Below, in pieces: positions 11,209 to 31,854 of a DNA stretch of 64,000 nucleotides; within the stretch, counting starts at the first letter, position 1; each line of letters starts with the position of its first letter. The stretch is from the NCBI RefSeq assembly GCF_017355405.1, contig NZ_CP061177.1, forward strand, positions 3,222,501 through 3,286,500. The letters run 5' to 3'. The translations under genes and the position numbers were made by a program. A model generated the notes under the pieces. It saw nothing but the letters and a program-made list of their open reading frames with translations. It did not search any database and had not been told where the DNA came from. The DNA is from Roseomonas haemaphysalidis (lineage in GTDB: Bacteria > Pseudomonadota > Alphaproteobacteria > Acetobacterales > Acetobacteraceae).

Positions 11209-11372
11209 AAGGCCGGGGAAAGAATTCCCCGGACCCCATCTTTTGTCTGATTGATTTTTTATGTGCTGACGAAGCGGTAGCACTTGGACTTTGGCGCATC
11301 GCTGCCGCGGCCACACCCGGAAACAGGACGAAAAAAAGATGGGGGTCTGGGGGAATTCCTTCCCCCAGCCTT
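11209..11372. repeat. Dispersed inverted-arm intergenic element, copy A
   Basis: Left arm 11209-11244 and right arm 11331-11372 are inverted versions of one unit. The unit is GGC, then C/T, a run of G, AAxGAATTCCCC, GGACCCC and ATCTTTT. Each arm is itself a near-palindromic hairpin followed by a T-rich tail, like an intrinsic terminator. An unrelated AT-richer spacer of about 85 bases lies between. It sits between the convergent aminotransferase and GNAT genes. Related copies are at about 21.0 and 31.7 kb. Confidence 0.88.
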
Positions 11373-11379
11373 CTCCCTG

Positions 11380-11907
11380 CTAGGCCGCGCGCGCCACCCT
11401 CCGGGCCGGCGGCACGGGCTGCGTCGCCGCCAGTGGCAGGCCGCCCATCGGCTTGAGCATCGGCACCGCTTCCGGGCATGCGGTGCAGCCATCCCACGCA
11501 CCGGGGATGAAGCCGCTGCGGGCATAGAAGCTCACCGCCGGCCCCCGCGCATTGACGCAAAGGCGGGTTGCGCCGTGGGCCCGGGCGTAGTCCTCGGCCA
11601 GTTCCAGCATGCGGGCGCCAAGGCCCGCGCCACGCCATTCCGGCGCCACCGCGATCAGCCGCAGCGCGGCGCGGCCATCGGGCTTCAGGTCGATACGGAT
11701 GGTACCGGCCACCGCGCCATCCACCACCAGCACCAGCGGGTGGTTGGCGGGGTCGCCCTCGTCCGGGTGTCCCGGGTCGTAGCGGCAGGGATAGGGCCCG
11801 TCCGCGCGATGATACAGGTCGAAGATGCAGGTTTCGCGGATCGCATGGTAGCGAAGCCGCTCAGGATCGCTCCGCATGGCGCGGAGCTGGGTAGTTCGGG
11901 GGCGCAC
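11380..11907 (-). CDS. GNAT-family N-acetyltransferase
   Basis: A 175-residue protein. The acetyl-CoA-binding motif is LRLIAVAPEWRGAGLGARML at about residues 82-101 (R/Q-x-x-G-x-G/A type), followed by the helix LAEDYARAHGATRLCV and the strand/loop AVSFYARSGF, a standard GNAT C-terminal half. The N-terminus contains CIFDLYHRADGPYPCRYD, which is unusual and may shape substrate choice. Substrate unknown. Start 11907 is the longest; ATG at 11877 is possible. The C-terminal 30 residues are Pro/Ala-rich. Confidence 0.8.
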   Translation of the reverse strand: MRPRTTQLRAMRSDPERLRYHAIRETCIFDLYHRADGPYPCRYDPGHPDEGDPANHPLVLVVDGAVAGTIRIDLKPDGRAALRLIAVAPEWRGAGLGARMLELAEDYARAHGATRLCVNARGPAVSFYARSGFIPGAWDGCTACPEAVPMLKPMGGLPLAATQPVPPARRVARAA

Positions 11908-12043
11908 GAGGCACCTTGTCGCTGTGACGGGAACCGCCCAAGGGTCGGTCCTTGCCGGCCCGGCGCGCGAAGGGCCGGACGGCGGGAGGATACCGCCGCG
12001 CCCCCGCCGCCCGCCATGGCCGCGAGTGACTGTCAGAAAAGCT

Positions 12044-12967
12044 TCACGCCGGCGGGTGGGTCTTCAGCCAGTGGCGGGCGATCTGCTCGCGCGTCGCGAC
12101 CCAGACGTCGGGGCAGGCCTTCACATGGTCCAGAAAGCGCTTCAGCGCGGCGGCGCGGGCCGGGCGGCCGACGATGCGGCAATGCAGGCCGATGCTCATC
12201 ATCTTCGGCGCCGTCCTGCCTTCCTCCAGCAGCAGGTCGAAGGCGTCGCGCAGGTGCTGCTCGAAGCCATCGTTGCTGGCGAAGCCCGGGGGCACCGCGA
12301 ACTTCATGTCGTTGTTGTCGAGCGTGTAGGGGATGACCAGCAACGGCTTGCCGGCGGCGGTGACGTAATGCGGCAGGTCGTCCTCATAGGCGTCGCTGTC
12401 GTAGAGAAAGCCGCCATGCTCGGCCACCAGCCGCCGCGTCTGCTCGCTGATGCGGCCGGTGTACCAGCCGACGGGCGGCCTGCCGACCGTGCGGGTGATC
12501 GTCTCGACGCATTGCGCGATGTGCTGGCGCTCGGTCGCCTCGTCGATATTCTGGTAGTTGATCCACCGCCAGCCATGGCTGGCGACCTCATGCCCGGCAT
12601 TCGCGAAGGCGGCGCCGATGGCCGGGTTCAGCTCCAACGCACGGCCAACGCCATACACTGTCAGCTTCATGTCCCGCTCGGCGAACAGCCGCAGGATGCG
12701 CCACACGCCGGCGCGGGCGCCGTAGTCGAACTGGCTTTCCTTGCCGATGTCGCGCATGCCCAGCACCGGGTTCCCGCCCGGCGTTTCGTTCAGGTAGACC
12801 TCGCTTCCGGCATCGCCGTTCAGCACGGAGTTCTCGCCGCCCTCCTCGTAGTTCAGCACAAAGGACACGGCGAGGCGCGCACCGCCGGGCCAGCGTGGGT
12901 CCGGCGGGTTGGGACCGTAGCCGGCGAAGTCACGGGGATAGGCGCTGTCTAGGGCGAGGATGGTCAT
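12044..12967 (-). CDS. puuE: Cofactor-independent allantoinase, PuuE type
   Basis: A 307-residue protein of the polysaccharide-deacetylase-like PuuE family, which hydrolyses allantoin to allantoate in purine degradation. It opens YPRDFAGYGPNPPDPRWPGG and continues VSFVLNYEEGGENSVL, both hallmarks of this subfamily. Further conserved pieces are VASHGWRWINYQN (about residues 127-139) and LHCRIVGRPAR near residue 263. Unlike classical amidohydrolase allantoinases it needs no metal cofactor, according to family knowledge. No other urate or allantoin genes are adjacent, so the pathway assignment rests on sequence only. Confidence 0.85.
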   Translation of the reverse strand: MTILALDSAYPRDFAGYGPNPPDPRWPGGARLAVSFVLNYEEGGENSVLNGDAGSEVYLNETPGGNPVLGMRDIGKESQFDYGARAGVWRILRLFAERDMKLTVYGVGRALELNPAIGAAFANAGHEVASHGWRWINYQNIDEATERQHIAQCVETITRTVGRPPVGWYTGRISEQTRRLVAEHGGFLYDSDAYEDDLPHYVTAAGKPLLVIPYTLDNNDMKFAVPPGFASNDGFEQHLRDAFDLLLEEGRTAPKMMSIGLHCRIVGRPARAAALKRFLDHVKACPDVWVATREQIARHWLKTHPPA

Positions 12968-13020
12968 GGGGCGAAAGCTTGCTGGCCGCCGCCCGGCGCC
13001 GTCAACCGGGTCCCGCCTGC

Positions 13021-13416
13021 CTAGATTGGCCGGCGTTCAAAGGAGATCGGCACGCTCAGCGTCGTGTAGCCACTGTCACGCAGCAGGACGGCGGGTGGCG
13101 GCGGCAATGGCGCCGCAGACAGGACAATCGTCAGGGCCGCCGCATCGAACAACGGCTCGCCCGCGCCGCCAGCGATCTGCGGCGTGTAGATTGCACCGTT
13201 GCTTCCCACCGAGAAACGGATCAGCGCCGTGCCCCCGGCCACCGGCATGGGGCGGGACGGATCACGGGGGAAGTAGCGCTTGGCCATGATCGCCGCGCTG
13301 ACGGAGCGCCGCCAAGTGGAAACCGCTTCCTGCTCCTCGGCGGTCATGCTGCCGGGCGTGCTGCACCCTGCCAGGGCCAGCAGAAGCCCAGCCGCTGCCA
13401 TACGTCTAGACGGCAT
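13021..13416 (-). CDS. Lipoprotein with TonB C-terminal-like domain
   Basis: A 131-residue protein. The ATG at 13416 starts a lipoprotein signal with lipobox LAGC (Cys about residue 18). The mature part, about residues 60-130, resembles the TonB C-terminal fold: a variable start, a strand ALIRFSVGSNGAIYTP, a helix with FDAAALTIVLSA, and a final strand TLSVPISFER. A longer start at 13440 adds only eight residues before the signal. It is probably periplasmic and membrane-anchored; its partner is unknown. No ExbBD genes are near. Confidence 0.7.
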   Translation of the reverse strand: MPSRRMAAAGLLLALAGCSTPGSMTAEEQEAVSTWRRSVSAAIMAKRYFPRDPSRPMPVAGGTALIRFSVGSNGAIYTPQIAGGAGEPLFDAAALTIVLSAAPLPPPPAVLLRDSGYTTLSVPISFERRPI

Positions 13417-13488
13417 TACCGCTCTCCATGACCACTGCATTGGTCATAGTCCCGGCCGATCCAACAGCCAGGGCCAAGCCTGCATGGC

Positions 13489-14388
13489 TCAGGACAGGCG
13501 GACGCGCACGATCTCCGGCATCACGCCGAAGCGCACCGGCAGCACGCTGCAGCCAAGGCCGCCGGACACCACCAGCCGCCGCCCCGCCTCCTCCACCAGC
13601 CCGTAGGCGAAGCGCTGACCGTAGCGGGAGCCGATCACGGGCGACCAGCCGAACAGCCGCACCTGTCCGCCATGCGTGTGCCCCGACAGGGTCAGCGCCA
13701 CCCGCCCCGGCACGTTGACGAACTGGTCCGGCTCGTGCGCCATCAGGATGGCCGGCGCATCGTCGGCGGCCAGGGGCGCCAGGGTGGCGGTCAGGTTGTC
13801 GGCACCGCGGAAGCGCCAGCCGCCACCGGGGATGCGATACGCCATGCTGCTGCCGGCGCCGCACAGCCACACCCCGTCGCCATGCGGCAGGCGAAGGGCC
13901 TGGTTGACCAGCACCCGGATGCCCGCCCCTTCCTGCAATCCCTGCAAGGCCGGGCGCCCCTCGCCCCGGCGCTGCACCGCGTCGTCGTCCCAGTAGTCGT
14001 GGTTGCCCAGCACCGCATGGGTGCCAAGCGGCGCCCGCAGCCGCGCCAACTCCGCCACCACCTCCGGCATCGGCAGTCGCCGGCGGATCCAGGGGAAGTG
14101 GCCGGGGATGTCCCCCAGCAGCAGGTGCGCGTCGGGCCGCAGCTCATTCGCCGTGTCGACGATGCGACGGATGCGCCGCAGCGGCATCCAGGGCTCGTTG
14201 GCATGGATATCGGCGATGACGCTCAGCACCAGCGGTGGCCGGGCGCCCCAGCCGGGCACCGGCAGGTCGTATTCGGTCACCCGCAGCAGCAGCCCCGGCT
14301 CGACCACCAGCCCGAAGGCGGAAACCCCGGCGCCGCTGGCCAGGGTGACGGCGCCGCCCGCCAGCAGGTGCCGCCGGGTGAGCCTCAG
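13489..14388 (-). CDS. Tat-type metallophosphoesterase with apparent CTG start
   Basis: Calcineurin-like phosphoesterase with all metal motifs: VIADIHAN (D-x-H), LLGDIPG (GD), VLGNHDYW (GNHD), AHEPD and SGHTHGGQ (GHTH). Upstream of the first ATG/GTG (14307) the frame continues with RLTRRHLLAGGAVTLASGA, which looks like a twin-arginine signal typical of this YaeI-like group. The only plausible start for it is CTG at 14388, overlapping the upstream TGA as CTGA. With GTG at 14307 the signal would be lost. Expected role: hydrolysis of a phosphoester at the envelope, substrate unknown. Confidence 0.78.
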   Translation of the reverse strand: MRLTRRHLLAGGAVTLASGAGVSAFGLVVEPGLLLRVTEYDLPVPGWGARPPLVLSVIADIHANEPWMPLRRIRRIVDTANELRPDAHLLLGDIPGHFPWIRRRLPMPEVVAELARLRAPLGTHAVLGNHDYWDDDAVQRRGEGRPALQGLQEGAGIRVLVNQALRLPHGDGVWLCGAGSSMAYRIPGGGWRFRGADNLTATLAPLAADDAPAILMAHEPDQFVNVPGRVALTLSGHTHGGQVRLFGWSPVIGSRYGQRFAYGLVEEAGRRLVVSGGLGCSVLPVRFGVMPEIVRVRLS

Positions 14389-15470
14389 GCGGCCATCCGG
14401 CCGGCCGGCACCTGGCCGTGCACCAGCGACTGGATGAAGCCCAGCTTGCGCACGACATTGGGCGACAGCACGAAGGGATACAGGTCCGCCACGCCCATGG
14501 AGCGGTTCAGGCTGTTCACCGCCACCGTCAACGGCACCCAGGCCTCCATCACCGCCTGGATATCCGTGCTGCGGTAGGCGTCGAAATCCACCTCCGCCTC
14601 CAGCACGCCGTCCTTGTCGGCCCGCGGCGCGATGCCGATGCCGAGCGAGCGCGCCATCTCCAGCGTATCCACGATGTGCAGGTAGTGCGCCCAGGTTTCG
14701 GCGAAGTCCTCCCAGGGATGGGCGGTGGCATAGGTGCTGACGAAGTTGTCCTGCCAGTTGGCGGGCGCACCCTCGTTGTAATGCCGCTGCAGGGCGGCGC
14801 CGTAGTCCTGGCTGTCATCGCCGAACACGGCGCGGCATTCCTCCAGCCGGCCCCCGTCGCGCACCAAGAGGTCCCAGAAATGATGGCCGGATTCGTGGCG
14901 GAAGTGGCCCAGCAGCGTGCGGTAAGGCTCGCCCATCGCGGTGCGGCGCTTGACCCGCTCCGCGTCGTCGGCCTCCACCAGCGCCAGGGTGATCAGCCCG
15001 TTGTCGTGGCCGGTCATCACGCTTTGCTGCGCGTCTGGCGCATCGGCCAGGAAGTCGAAGGCCAGCCCGTGCTGCGGGTCCTCCAGGCGGGTCTTCAGCG
15101 GCAGGCCCAGGCGGATGAAGCTGTAGAAGGCGCGCCGCTTGGCCACCTCGATCTTCTGCCAGCGCTCCTTGCTCACCGGGTCCGACAGGTTCGGGATGGT
15201 CTGGTTGTGGCGGCAGGCGGTGCAGAACCGCTCGGCGCTGTCATTCGGCACCAGCCAGTTGCAGGCCTGCTGCTGCGCGTTGTCGCAGAACCGGAAGGAC
15301 GGCCCGGGCGCAGCCCTGGCGGTGAACACCCCCTGCCCGCCATCCAGCGGGTCCAGTGCCGACAGCGTGGTCTGCTCCGGCAGAAAACCCAGCGTGGCGC
15401 CGCACTTGACGCACAGCGTGTTCTCGAAATGCAGGACCTGGCCGCAGTTCTGGCAGGCGAAGAGGCGCAT
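14385..15470 (-). CDS. Putative zinc-binding metallopeptidase with zinc-ribbon N-terminus
   Basis: From ATG at 15470 the protein begins MRLFACQNCGQVLHFENT, continuing to LCVKCGATLG, a CxxC...CxxC zinc ribbon. A second Cys cluster (FCDNAQQQACNW...FCTACRHN) follows at about residues 60-85. The core has HFRHESGHHFWD near residue 188, a HExxH-like metallopeptidase site with a downstream Glu-rich region (WEDFAETWAHYLHI). This matches the putative zinc-binding metallopeptidase family of proteobacteria, whose substrate is unknown. The stop overlaps the metallophosphoesterase start, so the two are probably co-translated. Confidence 0.8.
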   Translation of the reverse strand: MRLFACQNCGQVLHFENTLCVKCGATLGFLPEQTTLSALDPLDGGQGVFTARAAPGPSFRFCDNAQQQACNWLVPNDSAERFCTACRHNQTIPNLSDPVSKERWQKIEVAKRRAFYSFIRLGLPLKTRLEDPQHGLAFDFLADAPDAQQSVMTGHDNGLITLALVEADDAERVKRRTAMGEPYRTLLGHFRHESGHHFWDLLVRDGGRLEECRAVFGDDSQDYGAALQRHYNEGAPANWQDNFVSTYATAHPWEDFAETWAHYLHIVDTLEMARSLGIGIAPRADKDGVLEAEVDFDAYRSTDIQAVMEAWVPLTVAVNSLNRSMGVADLYPFVLSPNVVRKLGFIQSLVHGQVPAGRMAA

Positions 15471-15571
15471 GTTCGTGATTCCTGGCCCGGGCCGGTCCCT
15501 GGGCGTGGCTGTCAAATGCCCCTGCCCCGGCCCGGTTGCGCCGGCCGGCGAACATAGCGCGCATGCAACAA

Positions 15572-15619
15572 AAAAGGGCCCCGCCGGGGCCCTTTTCGCG
15601 GCCTGCCGTAGTGGCAGGC
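15572..15619 (-). terminator. Terminator region of the ilvBNC operon
   Basis: Two hairpins follow the ilvC stop on the minus strand. First GCCTGCC/GGCAGGC (15601-15619), then a strong GGGCCCC/GGGGCCC stem (15572-15596) followed by a run of T on the minus strand. The second is a canonical intrinsic terminator. Confidence 0.9.
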
Positions 15620-16648
<1,029 letters not shown>

Positions 16649-16668
16649 TCAGTGGAAACGAAAACGGG

Positions 16669-17193
16669 TCAGGCCTGCAGGCTCGACGGCCCGCGGACAA
16701 TGGCGACGGCACCGGTCCGGCTGACCTCGGCCAGCCCGATCGGCCGCATGAGATTGATGAAGGCGTCGAGCTTCTCGCCGCTTCCCGTCATCTCGAAGAC
16801 AAAGCTTTCCGTGGTGGCATCCACCACGCGGGCGCGGAAGGCATCCGCCAGCCGCAGCGCCTCCTGCCGCGCCTCACCGGTGCCGACCACCTTGATCAGC
16901 GCCAACTCGCGCGACAGATGCGGGCCTTCCAGCGTCAGGTCCGACACCTTGTGGACCGGCACCAGCCGGTCGAGCTGCGCCTTGATCTGCTCGATCACCA
17001 TCTCGGTGCCGGTGGTGACCACGGTGATGCGCGACAGGCGTCCGTGCTCATCGACCGGCGCCACGGTCAGGCTGTCGATGTTGTAGCCGCGGCCGGAAAA
17101 CAGGCCGATGACGCGCGCCAGCACGCCGGCCTCGTTCTCCACCAGCACGGCGATGGTCGCCGCGCGCTGCACGCTGTCGAGGTAGTCGGCCAT
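16669..17193 (-). CDS. ilvN: Acetolactate synthase small regulatory subunit
   Basis: A 174-residue regulatory subunit of acetohydroxyacid synthase. The N-terminal ACT domain starts AATIAVLVENEAGVLARVIG and continues LFSGRGYNIDSLTVAP, the valine-binding region. The C-terminal half (HLSRELALIKV, GEKLDAFINLM, VSRTGAVAIVRG) is the conserved small-subunit domain. ATG at 17193 is chosen because MADYLDS precedes the ACT domain; a longer start at 17295 would overlap the intergenic space after ilvB without family support. It binds IlvB and confers activity and valine feedback. Confidence 0.96.
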   Translation of the reverse strand: MADYLDSVQRAATIAVLVENEAGVLARVIGLFSGRGYNIDSLTVAPVDEHGRLSRITVVTTGTEMVIEQIKAQLDRLVPVHKVSDLTLEGPHLSRELALIKVVGTGEARQEALRLADAFRARVVDATTESFVFEMTGSGEKLDAFINLMRPIGLAEVSRTGAVAIVRGPSSLQA

Positions 17194-17254
17194 GGGGTCG
17201 GGTATCCGGTGGTCTGAAAGGGGATCGAGGCGTGCGGCGGGCGGTGGCGCCGGT

Positions 17255-19051: not shown

Positions 19052-19124
19052 GGTTCTGCGGACTTCCTTGAAACGGGGCCACTGCACATGGCGAGCCCGG
19101 CTTAACGTGCCAACCCCTGCCCCG

Positions 19125-20090: not shown

Positions 20091-20116
20091 CGCCCCGCGC
20101 GCATGGTCCGCGCCCC

Positions 20117-21013
20117 ATGTCCCATATCATGACCCTCGTCGCGCCGGCCGGCGGCCTGCAGGCCCCCCTCGTCGCACGCATCCGCGCCGCCCTCAACGAC
20201 CTCGGCGGCCAGGCCGGCACCGCCGACTGGCTGGCGGAGGAAGAGGCGGCCGACCTGCCGTTTTCCCTCCTGGCCGCCGAGCAGGCCACCGCCATCGCGC
20301 GCGGCGCGCTGGACGGCGCGCCGGTGGACTGCATCGCCCAGCCCGCCGAAGGCCGCCGCAAGATGCTGCTGGTGGCGGACATGGACAGCACCATCGTCAC
20401 CGCCGAAACGCTGGACGAGCTGGCCGCCCATGCCGGGGTGCAGGCGCAGATCGCCGCCATCACCCAGCGCAGCATGAACGGCGAGATCGACTTCTCCACC
20501 TCGCTGCGCGAGCGGGTCGCGATGATCAAGGGCCTGCCGCTGGCCGCCCTGCAAAAGACCTGGGAGCACATCGAGCTGATGCCCGGCGCCGAGGAGCTGG
20601 TCCGCACCATGGCGGCGCACGGCGCGCATTGTGCCATCGCCTCCGGCGGCTTCACCTGGTTCACGGCACGGGTGGCCGAGCGGGTCGGCTTTCAAAGCCA
20701 CCATGCCAACATCCTGCTGGACGATGGCCACGCCCTGCTGGGCCGCGTGGAGGAGCCGGTCTTCGACCGCGACAGCAAGCTCACCATCCTGAAGCAGCTC
20801 GCCGCCGAGCATGCCCTGCCGCTGTCCGCCACCGCCGCCGTGGGTGATGGCGCCAATGACCTCGCCATGCTGGGCGCGGCCGGCCTCGGCGTCGCCTTCC
20901 GCGCCAAGCCGGTGGTGGCGGCCTCGGCGCGGGCGCGGGTGGATTTCGGAGACCTGCGGGCACTGCTCTTCGCGCAGGGCTTCCGGGCAGCGGAGATCGT
21001 GGAACAGGCGTGA
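20117..21013 (+). CDS. serB: Phosphoserine phosphatase
   Basis: Final step of serine synthesis. A 298-residue HAD hydrolase with the nucleophile motif VADMDSTIV (Asp88, Asp90), GEIDFSTSLRERVAMIKG, motif II ASGGFTWF, and motif III/IV GDGANDLAMLGAAGLGVAFRAKP. The N-terminal about 75 residues form an ACT-like extension, as in long SerB proteins. It starts at ATG 20117, divergent from miaA; both promoters must overlap the neighbouring coding starts. It is followed by repeat element B. Confidence 0.95.
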   Translation: MSHIMTLVAPAGGLQAPLVARIRAALNDLGGQAGTADWLAEEEAADLPFSLLAAEQATAIARGALDGAPVDCIAQPAEGRRKMLLVADMDSTIVTAETLDELAAHAGVQAQIAAITQRSMNGEIDFSTSLRERVAMIKGLPLAALQKTWEHIELMPGAEELVRTMAAHGAHCAIASGGFTWFTARVAERVGFQSHHANILLDDGHALLGRVEEPVFDRDSKLTILKQLAAEHALPLSATAAVGDGANDLAMLGAAGLGVAFRAKPVVAASARARVDFGDLRALLFAQGFRAAEIVEQA

Positions 21014-21016
21014 AGC

Positions 21017-21118
21017 AGGCCGGGGCACGAATTCCCCGGCCCCTTCTGCTTCTTCTCCTACTGGCGCCAGCCAACAAAGGAACGATGGGATCTGGGGGCA
21101 ATTCCTTCCCCCAGCCTT
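21017..21118. repeat. Dispersed inverted-arm intergenic element, copy B
   Basis: Left arm 21017-21054 (CCGGGGCACGAATTCCCCGG core) and right arm 21083-21118 (CTGGGGGCAATTCCTTCCCCC core) are inverted relatives of the arms in copies A and C. The spacer is only about 28 bases, so this is the shortest and most diverged copy. It lies between the convergent serB and htrA genes. The left arm could end serB transcripts: a hairpin followed by a TTCTGCTTCTTCT tail. Confidence 0.82.
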
Positions 21119-21128: not shown

Positions 21129-21159
21129 AAAAAAAGGCGGGACGCCGAAGCGCCCCGCC
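21129..21159 (-). terminator. Intrinsic terminator of htrA
   Basis: On the minus strand the stem GGCGGGGCGC pairs with GCGTCCCGCC (one G-U pair) around a TTCG loop and is followed by seven T. It starts 24 bases after the htrA stop. Canonical terminator. Confidence 0.93.
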
Positions 21160-21182
21160 CCTGATCCGGCCGGATGCGGCCG

Positions 21183-22769
21183 TTAGTTGCTGCTGCCGCC
21201 CTCGGCGCGTAGGCGCAGCGGCACGAAGCGCTGGCCCTGGCCATTTTCGACCAGCAGCAGGGCACTCGGGCGGTTCTGCTTGCGCAGGCGGTCCAGCTGC
21301 TCACGAACCTCCTGCGGGTTGCTCACCCGGGTCTGCTGCACCTCGATGATCAGGTCACCCGGCGACAGGCCACGCTCGGCGGCGCTGCTGCCGGCGGTCA
21401 CGTCCGTCACGACCACGCCACGGGCATCGTCGCGCAGGCTGAAGCGCTGCTTCAAGTCGGGCGAGATGGCGGCGACCTTGAGGCCGAGCCCGGCCAGCTC
21501 CACCGCGGCGCCGGGCTGCGCCTGCTCCGGCGCGGCGGGCGTGGTGCCGGCGGTCTGCTCGGCCGGCAGTTCGGCCACGGTGACGCGCAGCTGCTCTTCC
21601 TTGCCGTTGCGCCACACGGTCACGGGCGCCTCGGTGCCCACGCCCGTTTCGGCCACGATCAGCGGCAGGTTGCGCATTTCGCGCACGTCCTGGTTGTTGA
21701 AGCGCAGGATCACGTCGCCGTTGCGGATGCCACCCTTGGCGGCGGGGCCGTTATCCTCGGCCCGGGCCACCAGGGCGCCGCGCGCGCCGTTGGGCACGTT
21801 CAGGCTTTCGGCGATCTCTTCCGTCACCTGCTGGATATTCACGCCGATCCAGCCGCGCCGCACCCGGCCGCCATCGCGCAGCTGCGCCACGATGTTCTTG
21901 GCCAGGTTGGACGGAATGGCGAAGCCGATGCCGATGGAGCCGCCGGAGGGCGAAACGATGGCGGTGTTGATGCCCACCACCTCGCCGGCCAGGTTGAACA
22001 GCGGGCCGCCCGAATTGCCGCGGTTGATGGCCGCGTCCGTCTGGATGAAGTTGTCGTAGGGGCCGGAGTTCAGGTTGCGCCCGCGCGCGGACACGATGCC
22101 CGAGGTCACGGAGCCGCCGAAGCCCAGCGGATTGCCGATGGCCAGCACCCAGTCGCCCACCTCCGCCCTGTCGGAGTCACCGAAGGCGACCACCGGCAGC
22201 GGCTTGTCGGACTTCACGCGCAGCACGGCGAGGTCGGTGCGCTGGTCCACGCCCACCAGCTCGGCCTTCAGCGTGGTGTTGTCCTGCAGCACGACGTTGA
22301 TCTCGTCGGCGCCATCGACCACGTGGTTGTTGGTGACGATGATGCCCGACGCATCGATGATGAAGCCCGAACCCTGGCTCTGCGCGCGGCGCTGCGGCTG
22401 GCCGGGGCGCTGGCCCGGGCGCTGGCGCTCCATGAAGTCGCGGAACAGCTCCTCGAAGGGGCTGCCCGGCGGGGCCTGCGGCATTTCCGGCGCGTCGGGG
22501 CGGCCGCCGCGCGCGGGGCGGTCGCCGCCGATGGTCTGGGTGGTCTGGATGTTCACGACCGAAGGCAGCAGCCGGCGCGCCAGCGGCGCGAAGGACGGCG
22601 GCTGGTTGGCCATCGGCGCCGGCAGGCCCTCGCGCGGCGTGGCGGGGGCCACGGGCGCGGTGGCGTTCGGCGGCGCGGCGCTGGGCGCGGGTTGGGCGTG
22701 GACGGAAAAGGGCGCCGCGAGCGGGACGGCTGCGACAGCAGCGGCCAGCATCAGGGGGGCGAGACGCAT
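21183..22769 (-). CDS. degP: Periplasmic serine protease DegP/HtrA (Do family)
   Basis: A 528-residue protein with a Sec signal (about residues 1-26, cleaved after VHA), a long Pro-rich segment, and a trypsin-like domain whose catalytic triad is visible: His149 in TNNHVVDG, Asp179 in RTDLAVLRV and Ser253 in GNSGGPLF. A Q-rich loop lies around residues 115-135. Two PDZ domains follow (about 300-390 and 420-520). It degrades or refolds misfolded envelope proteins. The symbol could also be mucD; the family is certain, the subfamily less so. Upstream is the hflKC pair on the same strand, 182 bases away. Confidence 0.93.
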   Translation of the reverse strand: MRLAPLMLAAAVAAVPLAAPFSVHAQPAPSAAPPNATAPVAPATPREGLPAPMANQPPSFAPLARRLLPSVVNIQTTQTIGGDRPARGGRPDAPEMPQAPPGSPFEELFRDFMERQRPGQRPGQPQRRAQSQGSGFIIDASGIIVTNNHVVDGADEINVVLQDNTTLKAELVGVDQRTDLAVLRVKSDKPLPVVAFGDSDRAEVGDWVLAIGNPLGFGGSVTSGIVSARGRNLNSGPYDNFIQTDAAINRGNSGGPLFNLAGEVVGINTAIVSPSGGSIGIGFAIPSNLAKNIVAQLRDGGRVRRGWIGVNIQQVTEEIAESLNVPNGARGALVARAEDNGPAAKGGIRNGDVILRFNNQDVREMRNLPLIVAETGVGTEAPVTVWRNGKEEQLRVTVAELPAEQTAGTTPAAPEQAQPGAAVELAGLGLKVAAISPDLKQRFSLRDDARGVVVTDVTAGSSAAERGLSPGDLIIEVQQTRVSNPQEVREQLDRLRKQNRPSALLLVENGQGQRFVPLRLRAEGGSSN

Positions 22770-22919: not shown

Positions 22920-22951
22920 CCGACACAATCCGAGATGTTAACAGAAAGCCA

Positions 22952-25185: not shown

Positions 25186-25278
25186 CGGCCGGCACATCTC
25201 CGTGTCGTGTCGTCGCGCCACGCCTGCCGGCATGACGTTTGGCGGTTTCGGCCGCTTGCGCGAGGCGGGTGCATGCGC

Positions 25279-25307
25279 GACAGGGCCGGACCATATGTCG
25301 CCCTGTC
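25279..25307. promoter_or_regulatory. Inverted repeat in the hflK/mrp divergent region
   Basis: GACAGGGC (25279-25286) and GCCCTGTC (25300-25307) form a perfect 8-bp inverted repeat with a 13-base spacer containing CATATG. It lies midway between the divergent hflK and mrp genes, where an operator for either would be expected. No regulator can be named. Confidence 0.4.
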
Positions 25308-25378
25308 CGGGCCATGGCGCAATGGCGCCACAGCGGGGGCGTGGCGGATATTGTCCGGGTGTAAGAGGTTTTCAAGCG

Positions 25379-26503
25379 ATGACGGTTGAGCTGGCGGAAG
25401 CGGTGCGGCGGGCGCTGGCCGAGGTGCGCGACCCGGGAACGGGGCTGGACGTCGTGTCGTCCGGATTTCTCCAGGGCCTGTCGGCGCGCGACGGGCTGGT
25501 GCAGTTCGCCCTGTCCGTGCCGCGCGAGCGGGCGCGCGGGCTGGAACCGTTGCGCGCCGCGGCCGAGCGTGCCGCCGCCGCCGTGCCCGGCGTCTTGTCC
25601 GCCACCTGCGTGCTGACGGCGCACCGCGACGCCCCCGCCCCTGCCCCCGCACCCGGCGCCGCCCCCGCCCGGTCCAGCCGCCCCGCCCCCGGCCAGGGGC
25701 CGATGCTGCTGCCAGAGGTCAAGGCCATTGTCGCCGTCGCGTCCGGCAAGGGCGGCGTGGGCAAGTCCACCACCGCGGTCAACCTCGCCGTGTCGCTGGC
25801 GGCGGAAGGGCTGCGGGTCGGGCTGCTGGATGCGGACATCTACGGCCCGTCCCTGCCGCAGATGCTGGGCACGCAGGACAAGCCGCGCGCCAGCAACGGC
25901 CGCATCGTGCCGATCTCCCGCTGGGGGCTGAAGGCCATGTCCATCGGCTTTCTGGTGGAGCAGGAAACGCCCATGGTGTGGCGCGGCCCGATGGTGATGG
26001 GCGCGCTGGAGCAGATGCTCGGCCAGGTGGAATGGGGGGCGCTCGACATCATGATCGTGGACATGCCGCCCGGGACCGGCGACGCGCAGCTGACCATGAG
26101 CCAGCGCGTGCCACTGGCCGGCGCCGTGATCGTTTCCACCCCACAGGACGTGGCGCTGATCGACGCCCGGCGCGGCATCCGGATGTTCGAGAAGGTCAAC
26201 GTGCCCGTGCTGGGCCTGATCGAGAACATGTCCTACTTCTGCTGCCCCAATTGCGACCACCGCACCGAGATCTTCGGCCACGGCGGCGCGCGGGCCGAGG
26301 CGGCGCGGATGGACGTGGAATTCCTGGGCGAGCTGCCACTGAAGCTGGCGATCCGCGAGCTCGCCGATGCCGGCACGCCGATCGCCGTGGCACGGCCGGA
26401 AAGCGAGGAGGCGCGCGCCTACCGCGCCATCGCCACCCGGCTGATGAGCAAGCTGCAACAAGGGGGCGCGGCGCCCGCCGCCCCCCGCTTCGTGGTGGAG
26501 TGA
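25379..26503 (+). CDS. mrp: Mrp/NBP35-family iron-sulfur carrier ATPase
   Basis: A 374-residue protein with an N-terminal MIP18/DUF59 domain (about 1-80, VRDPGTGLDVVSSG), an Ala/Pro linker (85-108) and a ParA-like P-loop ATPase: SGKGGVGKSTT with the deviant Walker A at about 122-132, LDADIYGPSLPQMLG, and DMPPGTGDAQLT. The CCPNC motif near residue 285 is the CxxC that bridges the Fe-S cluster between monomers. It scaffolds or transfers Fe-S clusters. The ATG at 25379 is the first that starts the MIP18 domain; upstream in-frame sequence is intergenic. Confidence 0.94.
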   Translation: MTVELAEAVRRALAEVRDPGTGLDVVSSGFLQGLSARDGLVQFALSVPRERARGLEPLRAAAERAAAAVPGVLSATCVLTAHRDAPAPAPAPGAAPARSSRPAPGQGPMLLPEVKAIVAVASGKGGVGKSTTAVNLAVSLAAEGLRVGLLDADIYGPSLPQMLGTQDKPRASNGRIVPISRWGLKAMSIGFLVEQETPMVWRGPMVMGALEQMLGQVEWGALDIMIVDMPPGTGDAQLTMSQRVPLAGAVIVSTPQDVALIDARRGIRMFEKVNVPVLGLIENMSYFCCPNCDHRTEIFGHGGARAEAARMDVEFLGELPLKLAIRELADAGTPIAVARPESEEARAYRAIATRLMSKLQQGGAAPAAPRFVVE

Positions 26504-26508
26504 GCCTG

Positions 26509-27195
26509 ATGTCGGACCCCCTGCAGATCGGCTTCGTGCTGTTTTCCGGCCAAACGCACCTGGATTTCGCGGGGCCGTGGGAGGTGTTGTCCCGCCTGCC
26601 CGGCGCCACGCTGCACGCCGCCGCCGCCGAGCTGGCGCCCGTCGAGTCCAGCGGCCTGCGCATCCTGCCCACCATCTCCTTCGAGCATTGCCCGCAGCTG
26701 GACCTGATCTGCGTGCCCGGCGGCCCCGGCCACCTGGCGGCGATGGAAGACCCGGCGGTGCTGGACTTCCTGCACCGCCAGGCGCCGGCGGCGCGCTTCG
26801 TCACCTCCGTCTGCACGGGCGCGCTGGTGCTGGGCGCGGCGGGGCTGCTGCGCGGCTTCGAGGCCACCACCCACTGGGCCTCGCGCGACCGGCTGGCGGC
26901 CTTTGGCGCGGAAGCACGGGACGCGCGCGTGGTGGTGGACCGCAACCGCATCACCGGCGGCGGCGTGACGGCGGGCATCGACTTCGCGCTGACCATCCTG
27001 GCGGCGCTGCAGGGCGAGAACTTCGCGCGCCAGGTGCAGCTTGGCCTGGAATACGCGCCCGAGCCCCCCTTCCCCGAGGCCGGCAGCCCCGACACCGCCG
27101 GGGCCACGGTGCTGGAAGCCGCCCGGGCCGCCACCGCCGGCTACCGCGCCCGCATGGCGGAGGTGGACACGCGCGCCGTGGCGCGGCTGGGGTGA
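26509..27195 (+). CDS. DJ-1/PfpI-family protein (isonitrile hydratase-like)
   Basis: A 228-residue class I glutamine amidotransferase-like protein of the GlxA/InhA branch: GFVLFSGQTHLDFAGPWEV at the start, LICVPGGPGH in the second strand, and the nucleophile elbow VTSVCTGALVLGAAGLL with Cys at about residue 105. TTHWASRDRLA and ITGGGVTAGIDFAL are typical of isonitrile hydratase relatives. No AraC-type DNA-binding domain is attached. The ATG starts 5 bases after the mrp stop, so the two may be cotranscribed. The substrate is not known. Confidence 0.85.
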   Translation: MSDPLQIGFVLFSGQTHLDFAGPWEVLSRLPGATLHAAAAELAPVESSGLRILPTISFEHCPQLDLICVPGGPGHLAAMEDPAVLDFLHRQAPAARFVTSVCTGALVLGAAGLLRGFEATTHWASRDRLAAFGAEARDARVVVDRNRITGGGVTAGIDFALTILAALQGENFARQVQLGLEYAPEPPFPEAGSPDTAGATVLEAARAATAGYRARMAEVDTRAVARLG

Positions 27196-27270
27196 GGCAT
27201 CGGGCAACCGGGCGTTCATCATTGCGCGGCTAGGTTCCGCCGGACACCCAGTGCCGGAGCCACGCCGCCC

Positions 27271-27951
27271 ATGACCGCCCAGGCCCGTATCGACGCCCCC
27301 GCCCCCACGCCCGACCTCGGCATGCTGATCGCCGCCGAGATGGCGCCGATGTTCCAGGAGCTGCGCGGCTTCATGGACCGCCGCATCGCGGAGCTCAGCG
27401 CCGAGCTGAGCGCCACCTCCGACATGGCGGACATGGCGGAGGAGAAGCTGTCCCGCCAGCTGGCCACGGTGCACGAGCAGATCGCGCAACTGGTCGCCAT
27501 CCCGGCGTCCAGCGCCCGCAACAGCGGGCTGGAGCTGGAAGCGGTGGTCCATGCCACGGAAAGCGCCGCCAACGTGATCATGGAAGCGGCCGAGGCGATC
27601 TCGGCCTGGATTTCCGGCGGGCAGAAGGACGAGGCCTCCATCCAGGCGCTGTCCGCCCGGGTGAACTCGATCTTCGAGGCCTGCTCCTTCCAGGACGTCA
27701 CCGGCCAGCGCATCCGCCGCGCCATCCAGCACCTGCAGCAGGTGGAAACCATGCTGGAGCAGATCGTGCCCGGTGTCGTGCCGGACGGCGCGCCCCGGCT
27801 GGTGATCGCCACCCAGATGCGCACCGTGACCGAGGCGGCGCTGGCGACCCCCGACCTGTCGCAGGACGACATCGACGCCCTGCTGAACGGCGCGCCGCCC
27901 AAGCCGGTTGAGATGTCGCAGGCCGAGATCGACGCGCTGCTGAACGGCTAG
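27271..27951 (+). CDS. cheZ: CheZ-family phosphatase with two FliM-like tail peptides
   Basis: A 226-residue, mostly helical protein. FEACSFQDVTGQRI at about 135-148 is the CheZ active-site helix, with Asp142 and the catalytic Gln146. It would dephosphorylate CheY-P or a related receiver. The C-terminus carries DLSQDDIDALLNG (about 195-207) and MSQAEIDALLNG (215-226), two tandem copies of the peptide with which FliM binds CheY-P. No other chemotaxis genes are in the window, so this is an orphan. Its stop shares CTAG with the convergent mbfA stop. Confidence 0.85.
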   Translation: MTAQARIDAPAPTPDLGMLIAAEMAPMFQELRGFMDRRIAELSAELSATSDMADMAEEKLSRQLATVHEQIAQLVAIPASSARNSGLELEAVVHATESAANVIMEAAEAISAWISGGQKDEASIQALSARVNSIFEACSFQDVTGQRIRRAIQHLQQVETMLEQIVPGVVPDGAPRLVIATQMRTVTEAALATPDLSQDDIDALLNGAPPKPVEMSQAEIDALLNG

Positions 27952-28904
27952 GCGCTGCCGATGAAGATGCCCGCCAGCAGCACCAGGATGCCGCCCAGCA
28001 CCACCTGCAGGGTGGCGCTGAGGAACGGCGTTTCCATGTAGCGCCAGCGGATCCAGGCGATGGCGAAGAGCTCCACCACCACCACCATCCCCGCCACTGC
28101 CGTGGCGGTCCAGAAATCCGCGATCAGGTAAGGCAGGGTGTGGCCGAGCCCGCCCACCGCCGTCATCAACCCGCACACGCCGCCGCGCAGCCAGGGGTGG
28201 CCGCGGCCGGTGATCTCGCCATCGTCCGACAGCGCCTCGGTCAGCCCCATGCTGATGCCCGCGCCGATGGAGGCGGCAAGGCCCACCAGAAAGGCGCTCC
28301 AGCTGTCATGGGTGGCGAAGGCGGCGGCGAAGATCGGCGCCAGGGTGGATACCGATCCGTCGATCAGCCCCGCCAGCCCCGGCTGCACCACCTGCAGCAG
28401 CAGCGCCCGGCGCGCCTGGTGCTCTTCCGAGCTGCGCGCGTCGGGGGTCAGCAGCGCGGCTTCCAGCTCGCCGGCGCGCTGCTCGTGCTTGGCCTCGCTT
28501 TCGGCCAGGTCGCCCAAAAGGCGGCGGGTGTCCGTGTCCGTCGTGCGCTCGGCGGCCTTGGCATAGAAGCGGGCGGCCTGCTGCTCCATCAGCGCCGCCT
28601 GGCCGCGCACCACGTCCGGCCGCAGGTCCTTCATCAGCCACACCGGGCGGCGGCGCAGAAAGCCGCGCACGTCCTGGCGGGTGATGTAGGGCATGGAATG
28701 GCCGAAGCGCTGTTCAAACAGCGTCAGCAGGCGGCGGCGGTGTTCCTCCTCCTCTTCCGCCATGCCGTCGAAGACCGCGGCGGTGGCCGGATAGGCGGCA
28801 CGCAGGCGCTGCGCGAAATGGCGGTAGATGCGCGAATCCTCCTCCTCGCTGGCCACGGCCAGGGCGAGAATCTCGGCTTCGCTCAGATCCTGCAGTCGCT
28901 TCAT
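27948..28904 (-). CDS. mbfA: Membrane-bound ferritin MbfA (erythrin-VIT1 fusion)
   Basis: A 318-residue fusion of a ferritin/rubrerythrin-like diiron domain (about 1-160: LAVASEEEDSRIYRHFA, MAEEEEEHRRRLL, and a third EAKHEQRAGE) with a VIT1-type membrane domain (about 170-318, starting GLAGLIDGSVSTLAPIFAAA and containing several spans). MbfA proteins of rhizobia export iron and protect against iron and peroxide stress. The promoter region of 76 bases is AT-rich for this genome. I looked for an Irr/Fur-type palindrome there and saw none that is convincing. Confidence 0.9.
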   Translation of the reverse strand: MKRLQDLSEAEILALAVASEEEDSRIYRHFAQRLRAAYPATAAVFDGMAEEEEEHRRRLLTLFEQRFGHSMPYITRQDVRGFLRRRPVWLMKDLRPDVVRGQAALMEQQAARFYAKAAERTTDTDTRRLLGDLAESEAKHEQRAGELEAALLTPDARSSEEHQARRALLLQVVQPGLAGLIDGSVSTLAPIFAAAFATHDSWSAFLVGLAASIGAGISMGLTEALSDDGEITGRGHPWLRGGVCGLMTAVGGLGHTLPYLIADFWTATAVAGMVVVVELFAIAWIRWRYMETPFLSATLQVVLGGILVLLAGIFIGSA

Positions 28905-28980
28905 GGTCAGCGCCTCCTGCAGCGCATGTCGCGCCGCAGGAGCCAGAACGCAAGAATTTTATGGCAGCGTTTTCAATGAC

Positions 28981-29283
28981 TTAAAGAGAATGCGGCGCGT
29001 TCGCAACATAGTCGGCCGCGATCCGCAGGTCGCGCAGCGGCCGCACGCGGTCGATCGACGCCTGGTAGGTCGGGTGCGCCTTGTAGGCGGCCAGCGCGGC
29101 GGCATCGGCGAATTCGCCATAAACCACCACGTCCACCTCGTTGCCGAGCTGGTCCAGCCGGCCGTTCAGCGTCACCTCCAGCAGCGTGGCGTGCGGAATG
29201 GTCTTGAGGATCGACAGCCCCTCCAGCACGGCGCCCACGTCCTCGCGCCGCCGGGCGCGAAAGAACACGATATGGCGGATCAT
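28981..29283 (-). CDS. Dabb (stress-responsive A/B barrel) domain protein
   Basis: A 100-residue protein starting MIRHIVFFRARRREDVGAVLEG, with the Dabb pattern: strand, helix, VDVVVYGEFADAAALAAYKAHP, then the helical end. The HP pair after YKAH is characteristic. Proteins of this fold are dimeric alpha+beta barrels of varied function. The start overlaps the ribokinase stop by 4 bases and it is the last gene of the thyX-led operon. Real function unknown; a link to ribose or nucleoside metabolism is only contextual. Confidence 0.8.
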   Translation of the reverse strand: MIRHIVFFRARRREDVGAVLEGLSILKTIPHATLLEVTLNGRLDQLGNEVDVVVYGEFADAAALAAYKAHPTYQASIDRVRPLRDLRIAADYVANAPHSL

Positions 29284-30176
29284 GCGGCGGCTCCGGCCAG
29301 CAGCGTCGCGGTTTCGGCGGCGGTCGGCATGGCGGCGGCGGCGCCCGGGCGCCCCACCGCGATGGCGGCGGCGGCCGAGGCACGGCGCATCGCCTCCGCC
29401 AGCGTGGCCCCGCCGTCCAGCGCGGCGGCCAGGGTGCCGCACCAGCAGTCGCCGGCGCCAGTGGTGTCCACCGCTCGCGTCCGGAAGGCCGGCTGGTGGT
29501 GCAGGCCATCCCCAGTGGCGACCTCGGCCCCCTGCTCGCCCCGCGTCACGACCACGTCGATGCTCAGCGCCGCCCGCAGCGAGCCCGCATCCGGCGGCAC
29601 GCCCAGGCGGCCGGCCAGCCAGTCGGCCTCGTGCTCGTTGGCGATCAGCAGGTCCAGCTGCCGCAGCATCGCCTCCGGCACCGGGGCGGGCGGGGCAAGG
29701 TTCAGGATGATGCGCGCGCCGCGCGCGCGGGCACGGTCCACCAGCAGCGCCATCTCGGCCACCGGCACCTCCATCTGCAGCAGCAGCACGGTGTCCGGCG
29801 TCAGCGCCGCGTCCTCCACCTGCGCCGCCGCCACGACGGCATTGGCGCCGGATGCCACGGCGATCTGGTTGGCGCCCCCCGCATCCACGCAAATGGCCGC
29901 GGCCCCCGTGGCCATGCCGGTGCGCGCCAGCCGCGACAGCTCCACCCCCGCCGCCAGCATGCCGGACAACGCCACCTCGGCCAGCGCATCGGTTCCGACG
30001 GCGCCGGCAAAGGAGGTCATGGCCCCGGCGCGGGCGGCGGCGGTCGCCTGGTTGGCCCCCTTGCCGCCGGGCGAGGCCTGCCAGCTGTCACCCAGCACGG
30101 TGTGGCCGGGCGCCGGCAGCGTGGGCGTGCTGAACACCAGGTCGGCATTGGCCGAGCCGAACACCAGCACGCTCAT
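29280..30176 (-). CDS. rbsK: Ribokinase-like PfkB carbohydrate kinase
   Basis: A 298-residue PfkB-family sugar kinase: FGSANADLVFSTPTLPAPGH at the start, SPGGKGANQATAAARAGA (PfkB signature 1 region), and DTTGAGDCWCGTLAAAL (signature 2, with the catalytic Asp). ASPGGKGANQA and the overall length fit ribokinase, which makes ribose 5-phosphate. The Cys-Trp after GAGD (usually x-F) is a small deviation. No ribose transporter is adjacent. It overlaps the neighbours by 4 bases on both sides. Confidence 0.85.
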   Translation of the reverse strand: MSVLVFGSANADLVFSTPTLPAPGHTVLGDSWQASPGGKGANQATAAARAGAMTSFAGAVGTDALAEVALSGMLAAGVELSRLARTGMATGAAAICVDAGGANQIAVASGANAVVAAAQVEDAALTPDTVLLLQMEVPVAEMALLVDRARARGARIILNLAPPAPVPEAMLRQLDLLIANEHEADWLAGRLGVPPDAGSLRAALSIDVVVTRGEQGAEVATGDGLHHQPAFRTRAVDTTGAGDCWCGTLAAALDGGATLAEAMRRASAAAAIAVGRPGAAAAMPTAAETATLLAGAAA

Positions 30177-30403
30177 GCGCGGTGCTGCTCCACCTGGCGC
30201 CGCTGGCCCCAGCGATAGCCGAGCCACAAGGCGCCCACCACCAGCAGCGCCATGCCGGCGTCGTGGAACAGGAAGCTCAGCACCGCCCACACCAGCCCGA
30301 GCACCGCGCCGACCACCCAGATGCCCACCGAGAAGGCGGCGAACACGAGCATCAGCGGCAGGCCGAACACCAGCAGGATCAGCAGCATGGAAACCCAGAA
30401 CAC
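30173..30403 (-). CDS. Small inner-membrane protein, 76 aa
   Basis: The GTG at 30403 is preceded by GGGGGAG at good spacing and is chosen over an upstream start at 30496 without such a site; ATG at 30388 is also possible. The product is hydrophobic: two membrane segments (about 3-37 and 42-60) and a basic C-terminal tail (GYRWGQRRQVEQHR). No family recognised. It is coupled to rbsK by a 4-base overlap and lies directly after another small membrane protein, so the pair may form one complex. Confidence 0.65.
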   Translation of the reverse strand: MFWVSMLLILLVFGLPLMLVFAAFSVGIWVVGAVLGLVWAVLSFLFHDAGMALLVVGALWLGYRWGQRRQVEQHRA

Positions 30404-30404
30404 G

Positions 30405-30710
30405 TCATTCTCCCCCGGCCCGGCGGCGCGGAACGCGCATCCGGGTGATGGGAATATCGTGCTTCGCCGTGGCGCGTCCAAGGGCGAAGCCGCCAACGCC
30501 GGTCAGCAGCAGCAGCGCGCCAAGGTCCCCCACCAGCGCCACCGCCATGGGAATGCCGACGATCAGCACCACGACGATCACCGCCACCGGCAGCCAGTGG
30601 CGCGGCAACAGCGCCAGCCACAGGCTGAAGCGCGCCGCGCGGGTCGGGCCCTTGGGCTTGGCGGCGCGTGGCCTGGGGGCCGGGCGGGCCGCGCCGGGCT
30701 TGGCTGCCAT
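30405..30710 (-). CDS. Small membrane protein, 101 aa
   Basis: The first 25 residues are Lys/Arg/Pro/Ala-rich ([20 protein letters not shown]), followed by two predicted membrane segments (about 37-58 and 62-78) and a basic tail ending RVPRRRAGGE. No known family. The ATG at 30710 lies 2 bases after the thyX stop, so it is coupled to thyX. Function unknown. Confidence 0.6.
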   Translation of the reverse strand: MAAKPGAARPAPRPRAAKPKGPTRAARFSLWLALLPRHWLPVAVIVVVLIVGIPMAVALVGDLGALLLLTGVGGFALGRATAKHDIPITRMRVPRRRAGGE

Positions 30711-30712
30711 GC

Positions 30713-31651
30713 TCAGGCCTCGCGGCCCAGCGTCTGCATCAACTCGCGCCATTCGCGCGGACTCAGGCCGCTGCCGCGCTGCTGCACCGCCTCGCCCGCC
30801 AGCAGGCGCCGGGTGATGTCCAGCATCTGCGCCGAAAAGGTGACGGCGCCGAGCCGGTAGTCGCGAAAGGCCTCGGCCACCGCCGGCACCCAAGCCTCCA
30901 CCACGCCCATCATCGCCTCGGCATAGACGCGGATCTCGTACTGCGCGTGGCTGTCGGCGCGCAGCCGCAGGAAGCCCAGCAGGTTGTGCAGGTCGGCCTT
31001 CCAGTACCACTGGGTGTAGGTGTTCAGCGTCAGGTTCATGCGCGCCAGCTCGCGCGCCAGCCCCTGGCGGGCGGGGTCGCGCGGCGTGCCGTCCGGCGCC
31101 TCGTTCAGCATGTCCTCGTAGTGGTCGTAGGTCTGGTTGGCGTCGCGGCGCAGCAGGTCCAGCACATGCGCGGCATCCGCCCCGTCCAGCACCGCACCGC
31201 GCCCCTGGCGATTGACCACCGACTGCGCCGCCAGCTGCTCCGGCGCGGGGATGTAGAATTCCCGGTCCATCAGCGAATAGCGCGCGGAATACTCGTTCAC
31301 GTTGGCCATGCGGTGGCGGATCCACTGGCGCGCCACGAAGATCGGCAGCTTCACATGGAACTTGATCTCGCACATCTCGAAGGGCGTGCTGTGCCAGTGG
31401 CGCATCAAATAGCGGATCAGCCCCCGGTCCTCTGTCACCGCCTTGGTGCCGCGGCCATAGGACACGCGCGCGGCCTGCACCACGGCGCCGTCGTCGCCCA
31501 TGTAGTCGATGACGCGGACAAAGCCATGGTCGAGCACGGGGATCGGCTCAAACAGCATCGCCTCCAGCGCCGGCACGGTGGGGCGGAGGGTTTCGCTGCG
31601 GCCCGCCTTGGCCTCTGCCAGTTCCAGCCGTTGCGCGTCGGTGATGGCCAT
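30713..31651 (-). CDS. thyX: Flavin-dependent thymidylate synthase
   Basis: Makes dTMP from dUMP with FAD, NADPH and methylenetetrahydrofolate, independent of ThyA. The 312-residue protein has the ThyX signature RHR(x7)S as [11 protein letters not shown] at about 112-122, followed by [25 protein letters not shown] precedes it and [19 protein letters not shown] carries further nucleotide contacts. ATG at 31651 gives the family start [17 protein letters not shown]; upstream in-frame sequence belongs to the repeat element. It heads an operon with two membrane proteins, rbsK and a Dabb protein. Confidence 0.95.
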
Positions 31652-31708
31652 GTGCGGGTGCCCCAAACTCTCGATGCAGGCACCTAACCCGTCCCGGGGG
31701 GGACAGGA

Positions 31709-31854
31709 AAGGCCGGGGAAGGAATTCCCCGGACCCCTTCTTTCTTTCTCCGGGTCCGCGAGCCGGCACGGTGGGGCGCTCCGGCCGTGCCGGGTGGTCC
31801 CGGGGAACAGACAGAAAAAAGATGGGGTCCAGGGGAATTCCTTCCCCTGGCCTT
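31709..31854. repeat. Dispersed inverted-arm intergenic element, copy C
   Basis: Left arm 31709-31747 and right arm 31815-31854 have the same unit as copies A and B: a hairpin around GGGGAA/TTCCCC with an ATCTTT-type tail pointing inward. The 67-base spacer differs from the others but the bases just before the right arm (GGAACAG...AGAAAAAAGATGGGG) match copy A. Here the element lies between divergent genes (thyX and the amidohydrolase), so it is not simply a terminator pair between convergent genes. Confidence 0.88.

Follow-up and report, generated by a model that had tools for sequence, protein, structure and literature searches.

Among the closest described systems are the repetitive extragenic palindromic (REP) sequences tagged with CGTC or GTAG, high-copy intergenic palindromes that form inverted dimers with variable or structured spacers, lie mostly in convergent or co-directional gaps (in the plotted genomes, most are less than 20 bp from 3' ends) and often supply the stop codon (Di Nocera 2013, PMC3733652). 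In the part of that survey drawn on here, the CGTC repeats apparently have no dedicated transposase and are missing from the Acetobacteraceae, and untagged families exist elsewhere. The window analysed here, a 64,000-nucleotide stretch of Roseomonas haemaphysalidis DNA (contig NZ_CP061177.1, positions 3,222,501 to 3,286,500), holds three copies of a paired intergenic element made of two inverted, hairpin-forming arms. It is suggested, with a probability of roughly 60%, that these copies belong to one genus-wide family of hairpin-ended repeats, likely non-autonomous mobile units, whose arms are predicted intrinsic terminators placed mostly behind stop codons.

The family shares its layout, its preference for gene ends and its supply of stop codons with the tagged REP dimers, and differs from them in that most arms are without GTAG or CGTC, a T-tail follows the hairpin and the host family is the Acetobacteraceae (PMC3733652). 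REPINs likewise comprise two inverted hairpin repeats and a spacer, and their singlets have been read as remnants (Bertels and Rainey 2011, PMC3116915); unlike REPINs, the present units span 91-439 bp, their two arms are no more alike than random arms, and 16 of 17 genus genomes have no REP-associated tyrosine transposase (RAYT). The SPRITE repeat of S. pneumoniae is also small and dispersed, has a hairpin and a U-rich tail, lies near 3' ends with enrichment in convergent gaps and is without an established target duplication, but it is a single AT-rich stem-loop with 30 copies in the strain studied, whereas the arms described here are GC-rich, mostly paired and number up to 728 (PMC3049150). 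Prokaryotic miniature inverted-repeat transposable elements (MITEs) are similarly short, non-coding and intergenic with inverted terminal repeats, although here neither a target duplication nor a parent transposon was found (PMC10969869). These comparisons draw on parts of the four reports. Because tag and enzyme fail for the former and target duplication for the latter, the family falls outside both the tagged, RAYT-driven REPs and the classical MITEs, and it is read as an untagged, RAYT-less REP-dimer- or MITE-like family with arms that are likely terminators. The original prediction, that the element resembles REPs and bacterial interspersed mosaic elements (BIMEs) in layout and not in sequence, is supported as regards a dispersed family of REP/BIME or MITE type. 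No description of the family was found in the literature on Roseomonas and Pseudoroseomonas repeats, as covered here largely outside subscription journals.

Copy number and architecture

The arms extend far beyond the three places in the window from which a dispersed family had been proposed. In the genome of R. haemaphysalidis (G000, with G001-G016 as its genus relatives) the core GGGGAAN{0,3}GAATTCCCC has 169 exact matches (91+78) versus 0 (0+0) for a reversed-pattern control, and all 150 of the 150 scored candidates matched a covariance model of the arm with an E-value of 5.4e-9 or better. A scan of 118 genomes for the core GGGGAANGAATTCCCC found it in 16 of the 17 genomes of the genus (Pseudoroseomonas/Roseomonas) at 0 to 728 arms each, with 158 in R. 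haemaphysalidis, 728 in the arm-richest genome, G004, and none in G008; among the 101 genomes beyond the genus it was present in 3, with 1, 14 and 33 arms, all of them among the 53 that represent other genera of the family, and in none of the 48 from outside the family. Named genomes were sampled as stretches chosen by the exact core, so that per-species counts from them are samples, and the 80 of 120 stretches listed came from Roseomonas or Pseudoroseomonas, Plastoroseomonas arctica, one Acetobacteraceae isolate and metagenome-assembled genomes labelled Roseomonas or Rhodospirillales. Arms also occur at 9 places on four plasmids of P. cervicalis PL22-11A. Phage records gave no arm match and a stricter pattern had 0 matches in viral contigs; the core was present in three contigs of IMG/VR.

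Within 19 stretches of the R. haemaphysalidis genome, 113 arms resolved into 50 inward-facing pairs (91-242 bp), 13 single arms and 0 outward-facing pairs, and the units overall are short (91-439 bp), non-coding and bounded by inverted terminal repeats. Thirty-five aligned arms give the consensus AAGG, stem YC(R)GGGG(G)AA, loop NGAA, closing stem, R, CCCC(C), [AT]TC and T-tail, with conservation that sets in abruptly at AAGG and declines some 20-28 nt beyond the hairpin. Unit size varies by lineage: pairs measure 235-239 bp in P. deserti (6 of 7) and sp. 18066 (4 of 5), 216-254 bp in a sample of P. aerophila (16 of 20) and 92-167 bp in E05; the small samples from P. aestuarii, P. cervicalis, GC11 and H6797 held single arms only. 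One core marker is common to P. aerophila, one P. wenyumeiae copy and six R. haemaphysalidis copies, a second core is common to P. deserti and sp. 18066, with cross-species matches, and all 5 occurrences of the core hairpin in R. haemaphysalidis were within paired elements. Among 138 distinct elements, compared after five identical sequences had been dropped as the same loci sampled twice, the best near-full-length match was 87.6% (P. aerophila) and no pair exceeded 88% identity. Given that the copies are alike over their length, shared cores included, they form a family of diverged copies rather than chance hairpins, and given that none of those compared is more than 88% identical to another, a recent burst is not indicated. 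Single arms in R. haemaphysalidis score 34.4 bits (n=12) versus 41.7 bits (n=100) for paired arms, with a pairwise identity in a matched sample of 0.599 versus 0.623.

Variant arms in several species (L035:10746 and 12469, L254:6799, L115:1777, L206:7879) have an additional palindrome, around AAACGTATACGTTT, that separates the hairpin from the C-run, and E05 has other palindromes near the hairpin/C-run position of these variant arms.

Arm structure and position relative to genes

Compensatory changes are found at three stem pairs in 179 arms (C-G 124 and T-A 44; C-G 107 and T-A 52; G-C 139 and A-T 29), in counts that are pooled over related arms and hence not independent. The arms fold at a mean of -17.7 kcal/mol versus -7.6 kcal/mol for base-shuffled arms, and the T-tail is strongly directional: 94 of 112 arms have six or more T within 8 nt, versus 1 of 105 when reading outward. 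Together, the covarying stem and the inner-side T-tail point to selection on each arm as a directional structure, as in a terminator. The two arms of an element are no more alike than random arms and show no covariation with each other (in P. deserti, with 7 elements, left and right arms are less alike than random), so each arm seems to fold alone. A long hairpin between the arms was considered as the selected structure and rejected, as the A/T tail form of the left arm varies independently of that of the right (75 of 138 elements scored; Fisher p 0.36).

Gene positions come from our own predictor, seeded on GC3 (the G+C content of third codon positions) and trained on the R. haemaphysalidis genome, and gene starts are uncertain. 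In the paired elements of all sampled species, stop codons are close to the arm that faces them, at a median distance of 7 nt and with 120 of 148 gaps falling between -5 and 25 nt; for gene starts the corresponding median is 65 nt, and 10 of 78 gaps fall in this interval. Among the R. haemaphysalidis intergenic gaps of at least 40 bp, arms are present in 15 of the 35 between convergent genes, 37 of the 126 between co-directional genes and 5 of the 48 between divergent genes (chi-square p 0.016), counted in stretches picked as arm-rich and with a regular expression that missed copy 2 of the window and other decayed copies. A single one of the 50 pairs in this genome was called inside a predicted gene. 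For the 81 single arms, a gene 3' end lies on the outer side in 46, on the inner side in 35 and on neither in 15; in 5 of the 35 inner-side arms the opposing stop codon falls within the arm's own CTGTCAG, and in annotated plasmid records genes overlap the arm. Position, stem covariation and tails favour a terminator-like function, as far as it can be read from sequence.

The copies in the window and their empty sites

The features of the three copies are as follows.

11209..11372, no strand: copy 1, a paired element flanked by convergent class-V aminotransferase (10080-11201, plus) and GNAT (11380-11877, minus) genes
11209..11256, plus strand: left arm of copy 1, with AAGG foot, hairpin, ACCCC, AT and T-tail
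11324..11372, minus strand: right arm of copy 1, reading leftward, with an inward T7 tail
21016..21118, no strand: copy 2, a decayed paired element between convergent serB (20117-21013, plus) and a Do-family protease gene (21183-22769, minus)
21133..21162, minus strand: ordinary GC-hairpin terminator, retained next to copy 2
31709..31854, no strand: copy 3, a paired element between divergent thyX (30713-31651, minus) and M20 amidohydrolase (31914-33074, plus) genes
31709..31752, plus strand: left arm of copy 3
31806..31854, minus strand: right arm of copy 3, with an inward T6 tail

The neighbouring genes were identified with Pfam and NCBIfam, the protease next to copy 2 being of the degP/htrA type, and their orientations bear out the claim of two copies in convergent gaps and one in a divergent gap. 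The window has 15 core matches at up to 3 mismatches versus 3.6 expected, with the palindrome partly counted on both strands. The original prediction had assigned one architecture to all three places, with a hairpin and an inward T-tail in each arm, GAATTC at the centre of every arm and a right arm that is the reverse complement of the left. Copies 1 and 3 are as it described, tails included, and GAATTC is central in five of the six arms. Copy 2 departs from it, given that its right-arm loop is GAATTG and its tails are degraded (CTTCTGCTTCTTC; ATCGTTCCTTT), for which reason it is read as a decayed copy. The complementarity of the arms is real but inexact, reaching 80% over 25 nt in copy 1.

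Empty sites in relatives, by which a mobile unit was to be recognised, were found for each of these copies and at further sites; with arms also present well outside the three places, neither of the outcomes named as refuting the original prediction came about. At the site of copy 1 the flanking matches are 62 nt apart in G013 versus 224 in R. haemaphysalidis, and the G013 stretch is without an arm. In the thyX/M20 gap the element of copy 3 is absent from the sole informative relative, G001, which is 124 bp shorter; G001 and G002 were uninformative for copy 1, as were G002, G004, G007 and G013 for copy 3, with a flank unaligned or other DNA between. Among 16 relatives the serB/protease gap of copy 2 holds no arm in 8, a pair in 3 and a single arm in 5, the pair lying on the serB side in G004 and on the opposite side in G003 and G012, with arms of 17-20 bits. 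In several of the relatives without the copy 2 element, inspected by eye, the gap is filled by a GC-hairpin like that at 21133..21162, and in G016 and G005 an arm is found at a place where other species carry a plain hairpin. A repeat of the P. cervicalis clade with the ends TTCTTTCGGCTGCCGG and CGGCAGCCCGAAAGAA lies behind a capsid gene (L415, L416, L168, L170), and in G014 and G009 sequence related to it comes after the single arm of the serB gap.

Elsewhere in R. haemaphysalidis, the site at C1:1044720 is 185 bp longer than its counterpart in each of the 5 relatives compared, in which the two genes, judged by eye, overlap or are almost in contact, and sites near 1049000 and 1050400 are longer by 192 to 198 and 181 to 187 bp than in 3 relatives each, whose stretches are without an arm; in one stretch of this genome, three of six element sites had two-sided alignments to relatives and three had none. 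Between the genes for GTP cyclohydrolase II and URC4 a single arm is present in a PL22-11A plasmid, G009 and G014, and 8 others are 38-83 bp shorter with none there. The aminotransferase/hydrolase site has a single arm in a PL22-11A plasmid, G014, G016 and G005, a full pair in G010 and G011 and none in G008, with one flank only in six further loci, including that of G009. Where the genes touch in other species, a gain is the more economical interpretation, and the pattern of presence and absence is taken to reflect insertion rather than loss, in cases that are only partly polarised.

The capsid-gene cluster

The three IMG/VR contigs carry T7-like gene clusters that are 94-96% identical, in which all 9 places have the arm that reads in the main direction of the genes. 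A model match for the opposite arm is found in all 3 contigs at site A, in 1 of 3 at site B and in none of the 3 at site C. Sites A and B lie between plus-strand genes; site C precedes a short predicted minus-strand gene, so it breaks the simple rule. A phage link of the arms was considered and the contigs were rejected as phage, given that every one of the 17 genus genomes contains a single strong match to the capsid gene (which is also matched in 11 of 51 others); they are read instead as a resident chromosomal cluster, which is possibly gene-transfer-agent-like. The T7-like head gene cluster (G000:C1:3605087-3605917 in R. haemaphysalidis, L296-L298 and L412-L428) encodes a head-tail connector (PF12236) and the capsid protein (PF19821).

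Behind the capsid gene, in 60 of the 80 loci listed, 13 match the arm model, some of them weak or one-armed, and in the remaining 47 another strong hairpin is present in 44 versus 18 of 47 control windows inside the gene. In the genus this gap holds a pair in G003 and G012, a weak partial match in G005, a plain hairpin in R. haemaphysalidis and plain hairpins or other repeats in the other species. The element thus seems to replace an ordinary terminator-like hairpin behind the capsid gene. A further dispersed double-hairpin repeat, GGTCCAGGAAACTCAGTTTCCTGGCGGGAGAGCGCGAGAGGGC, follows the capsid gene in G010 and G011 and, in E05, is found next to an arm (L424, L427, L187).

Discussion

One conserved pair of inverted arms around cores that differ between lineages forms a small unit. 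It is proposed that this unit would spread as a non-autonomous element moved by a putative enzyme, and that single arms would in part be remnants of pairs. Whichever flank it came from, RNA polymerase would be halted by the first arm it met, and an insertion would for that reason insulate the neighbouring genes from each other and split an operon. A more far-reaching version is speculative and rather improbable: a portable-terminator system with conserved ends and interchangeable lineage cores, in which targeted, RAYT-free transposition behind stop codons repeatedly replaces native terminators and cuts operons.

Several observations weigh against a family of mobile units with terminator arms. 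The RAYT-type transposase that the original prediction had named as mover was not borne out: a search of 17 genus genomes for PF01797, in which the E. coli control was positive, gave one 55-aa fragment in one genome and nothing in R. haemaphysalidis or the arm-richest genome. Target duplication was not found in 88 pairs at k 2-10 and offsets 0-11, the top scores being 2-3 matches at unequal offsets, as expected from many tests, and the compared flanks of relatives are about 69-98% identical with junctions that are not alignable base by base. No autonomous relative with the same ends occurred in the sampled loci, which are part of all copies, and of the seven long arm pairs seen, two have no predicted gene and the other five contain a predicted gene and no transposase. 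The distribution is uneven, with 2 of the 150 listed matches on C2-C8 and 1 of the 150 in C1 between 2.05 and 3.06 Mb. As regards termination, the stem-pair counts are not independent, the T-run begins a median of 4 nt after the stem (3-7 nt in 74 of 97 arms and 0-2 nt in 15 of 97 only), 15 of 112 arms have no T-run, and a consensus terminator scan of the window called a sense arm in copy 2 only and copies 1 and 3 in reverse only. The siting is also imperfect: of the 112 pairs classified, 9 are in divergent gaps, and each of the 58 co-directional pairs has one arm only that faces a gene 3' end. The near absence of arms from C2-C8 and from about 1 Mb of C1 fits an old rather than an active family and, with the divergence of the copies, suggests that the family may be old and now immobile.

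Among longer arm pairs considered as autonomous copies, the 2.6-kb pairs of G009 and G014 were rejected as they flank host genes, with one minus-strand call each that has no Pfam match at a place where an annotated plasmid shows a plus-strand aldehyde dehydrogenase. The others were rejected too, holding a polysaccharide deacetylase, a TctC-type receptor, a weak OmpA-like match below the cut-off or no predicted gene.

Given that neither a mover nor a target duplication was found, it is conceivable that a standard terminator module was spread by recombination, through gene conversion, imported DNA or uptake, without any transposition. One gap does hold different terminator-like modules across species, and G016 and G005 have an arm at a place with a plain hairpin in others; however, whole units stand at places where the genes of relatives overlap or nearly touch, and homologous copies with shared cores occur at unrelated sites, which makes this explanation somewhat unlikely. 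Another source of movement would be a single DDE insertion sequence whose full-length parent has the same ends, with the units as its classical MITE derivatives. The long terminal inverted repeats, the lineage size classes of 235-239 and 240-254 bp and the dissimilar left and right arms of P. deserti would suit such an origin, but the want of a target duplication and of a transposase in the longer arm pairs renders it doubtful.

It is highly improbable that the pairs are classical REP doublets copied by a RAYT, as in REPINs. Inverted doublets occur together with singlets, and the lower scores of the single arms are as expected of remnants in the part of the REPIN study used here (PMC3116915); moreover, the foot, mostly (G/A/C)AAGG, takes the looser form GNAG, mostly GAAG, in 107 of 161 arms. 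Against this stand the PF01797 result and the tags themselves, since within 8 nt of the stem GTAG was found in 6, GGAG in 20 and CGTC in 0 of these 161 arms. A different kind of alternative concerns function: the hairpins might act on RNA fate or translation, by shielding 3' ends or slowing ribosomes at stop codons. The non-canonical spacing of the T-tail would allow this, and the distance to the stop codon is mostly below 16 nt, the range in which E. coli REPs are reported, in the part of that study drawn on, to lower translation (PMC12306157). Nevertheless, termination is favoured by the strongly directional T-tail and by the interchange with plain hairpins downstream of the capsid gene, and an action on RNA fate or translation instead is considered unlikely.

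If a mobile family with terminator arms is the correct reading, terminators in the genus would also be delivered by mobile repeats, besides being inherited or evolved in place, and one insertion could shift operon boundaries; the orthologous filled and empty gene ends make the idea directly testable. It would add a REP-dimer-like family to the Acetobacteraceae, reported to be without the CGTC superfamily in the relevant part of the tagged-REP survey (PMC3733652), and it raises the question of the mover for RAYT-less REP families generally.

Other features of the window

The element positions are without any match in Rfam. Positions 33080-33411 and 48899-49315 match the Rfam models of the alphaproteobacterial (permuted) transfer-messenger RNA and of RNase P RNA, respectively, both of them ordinary.

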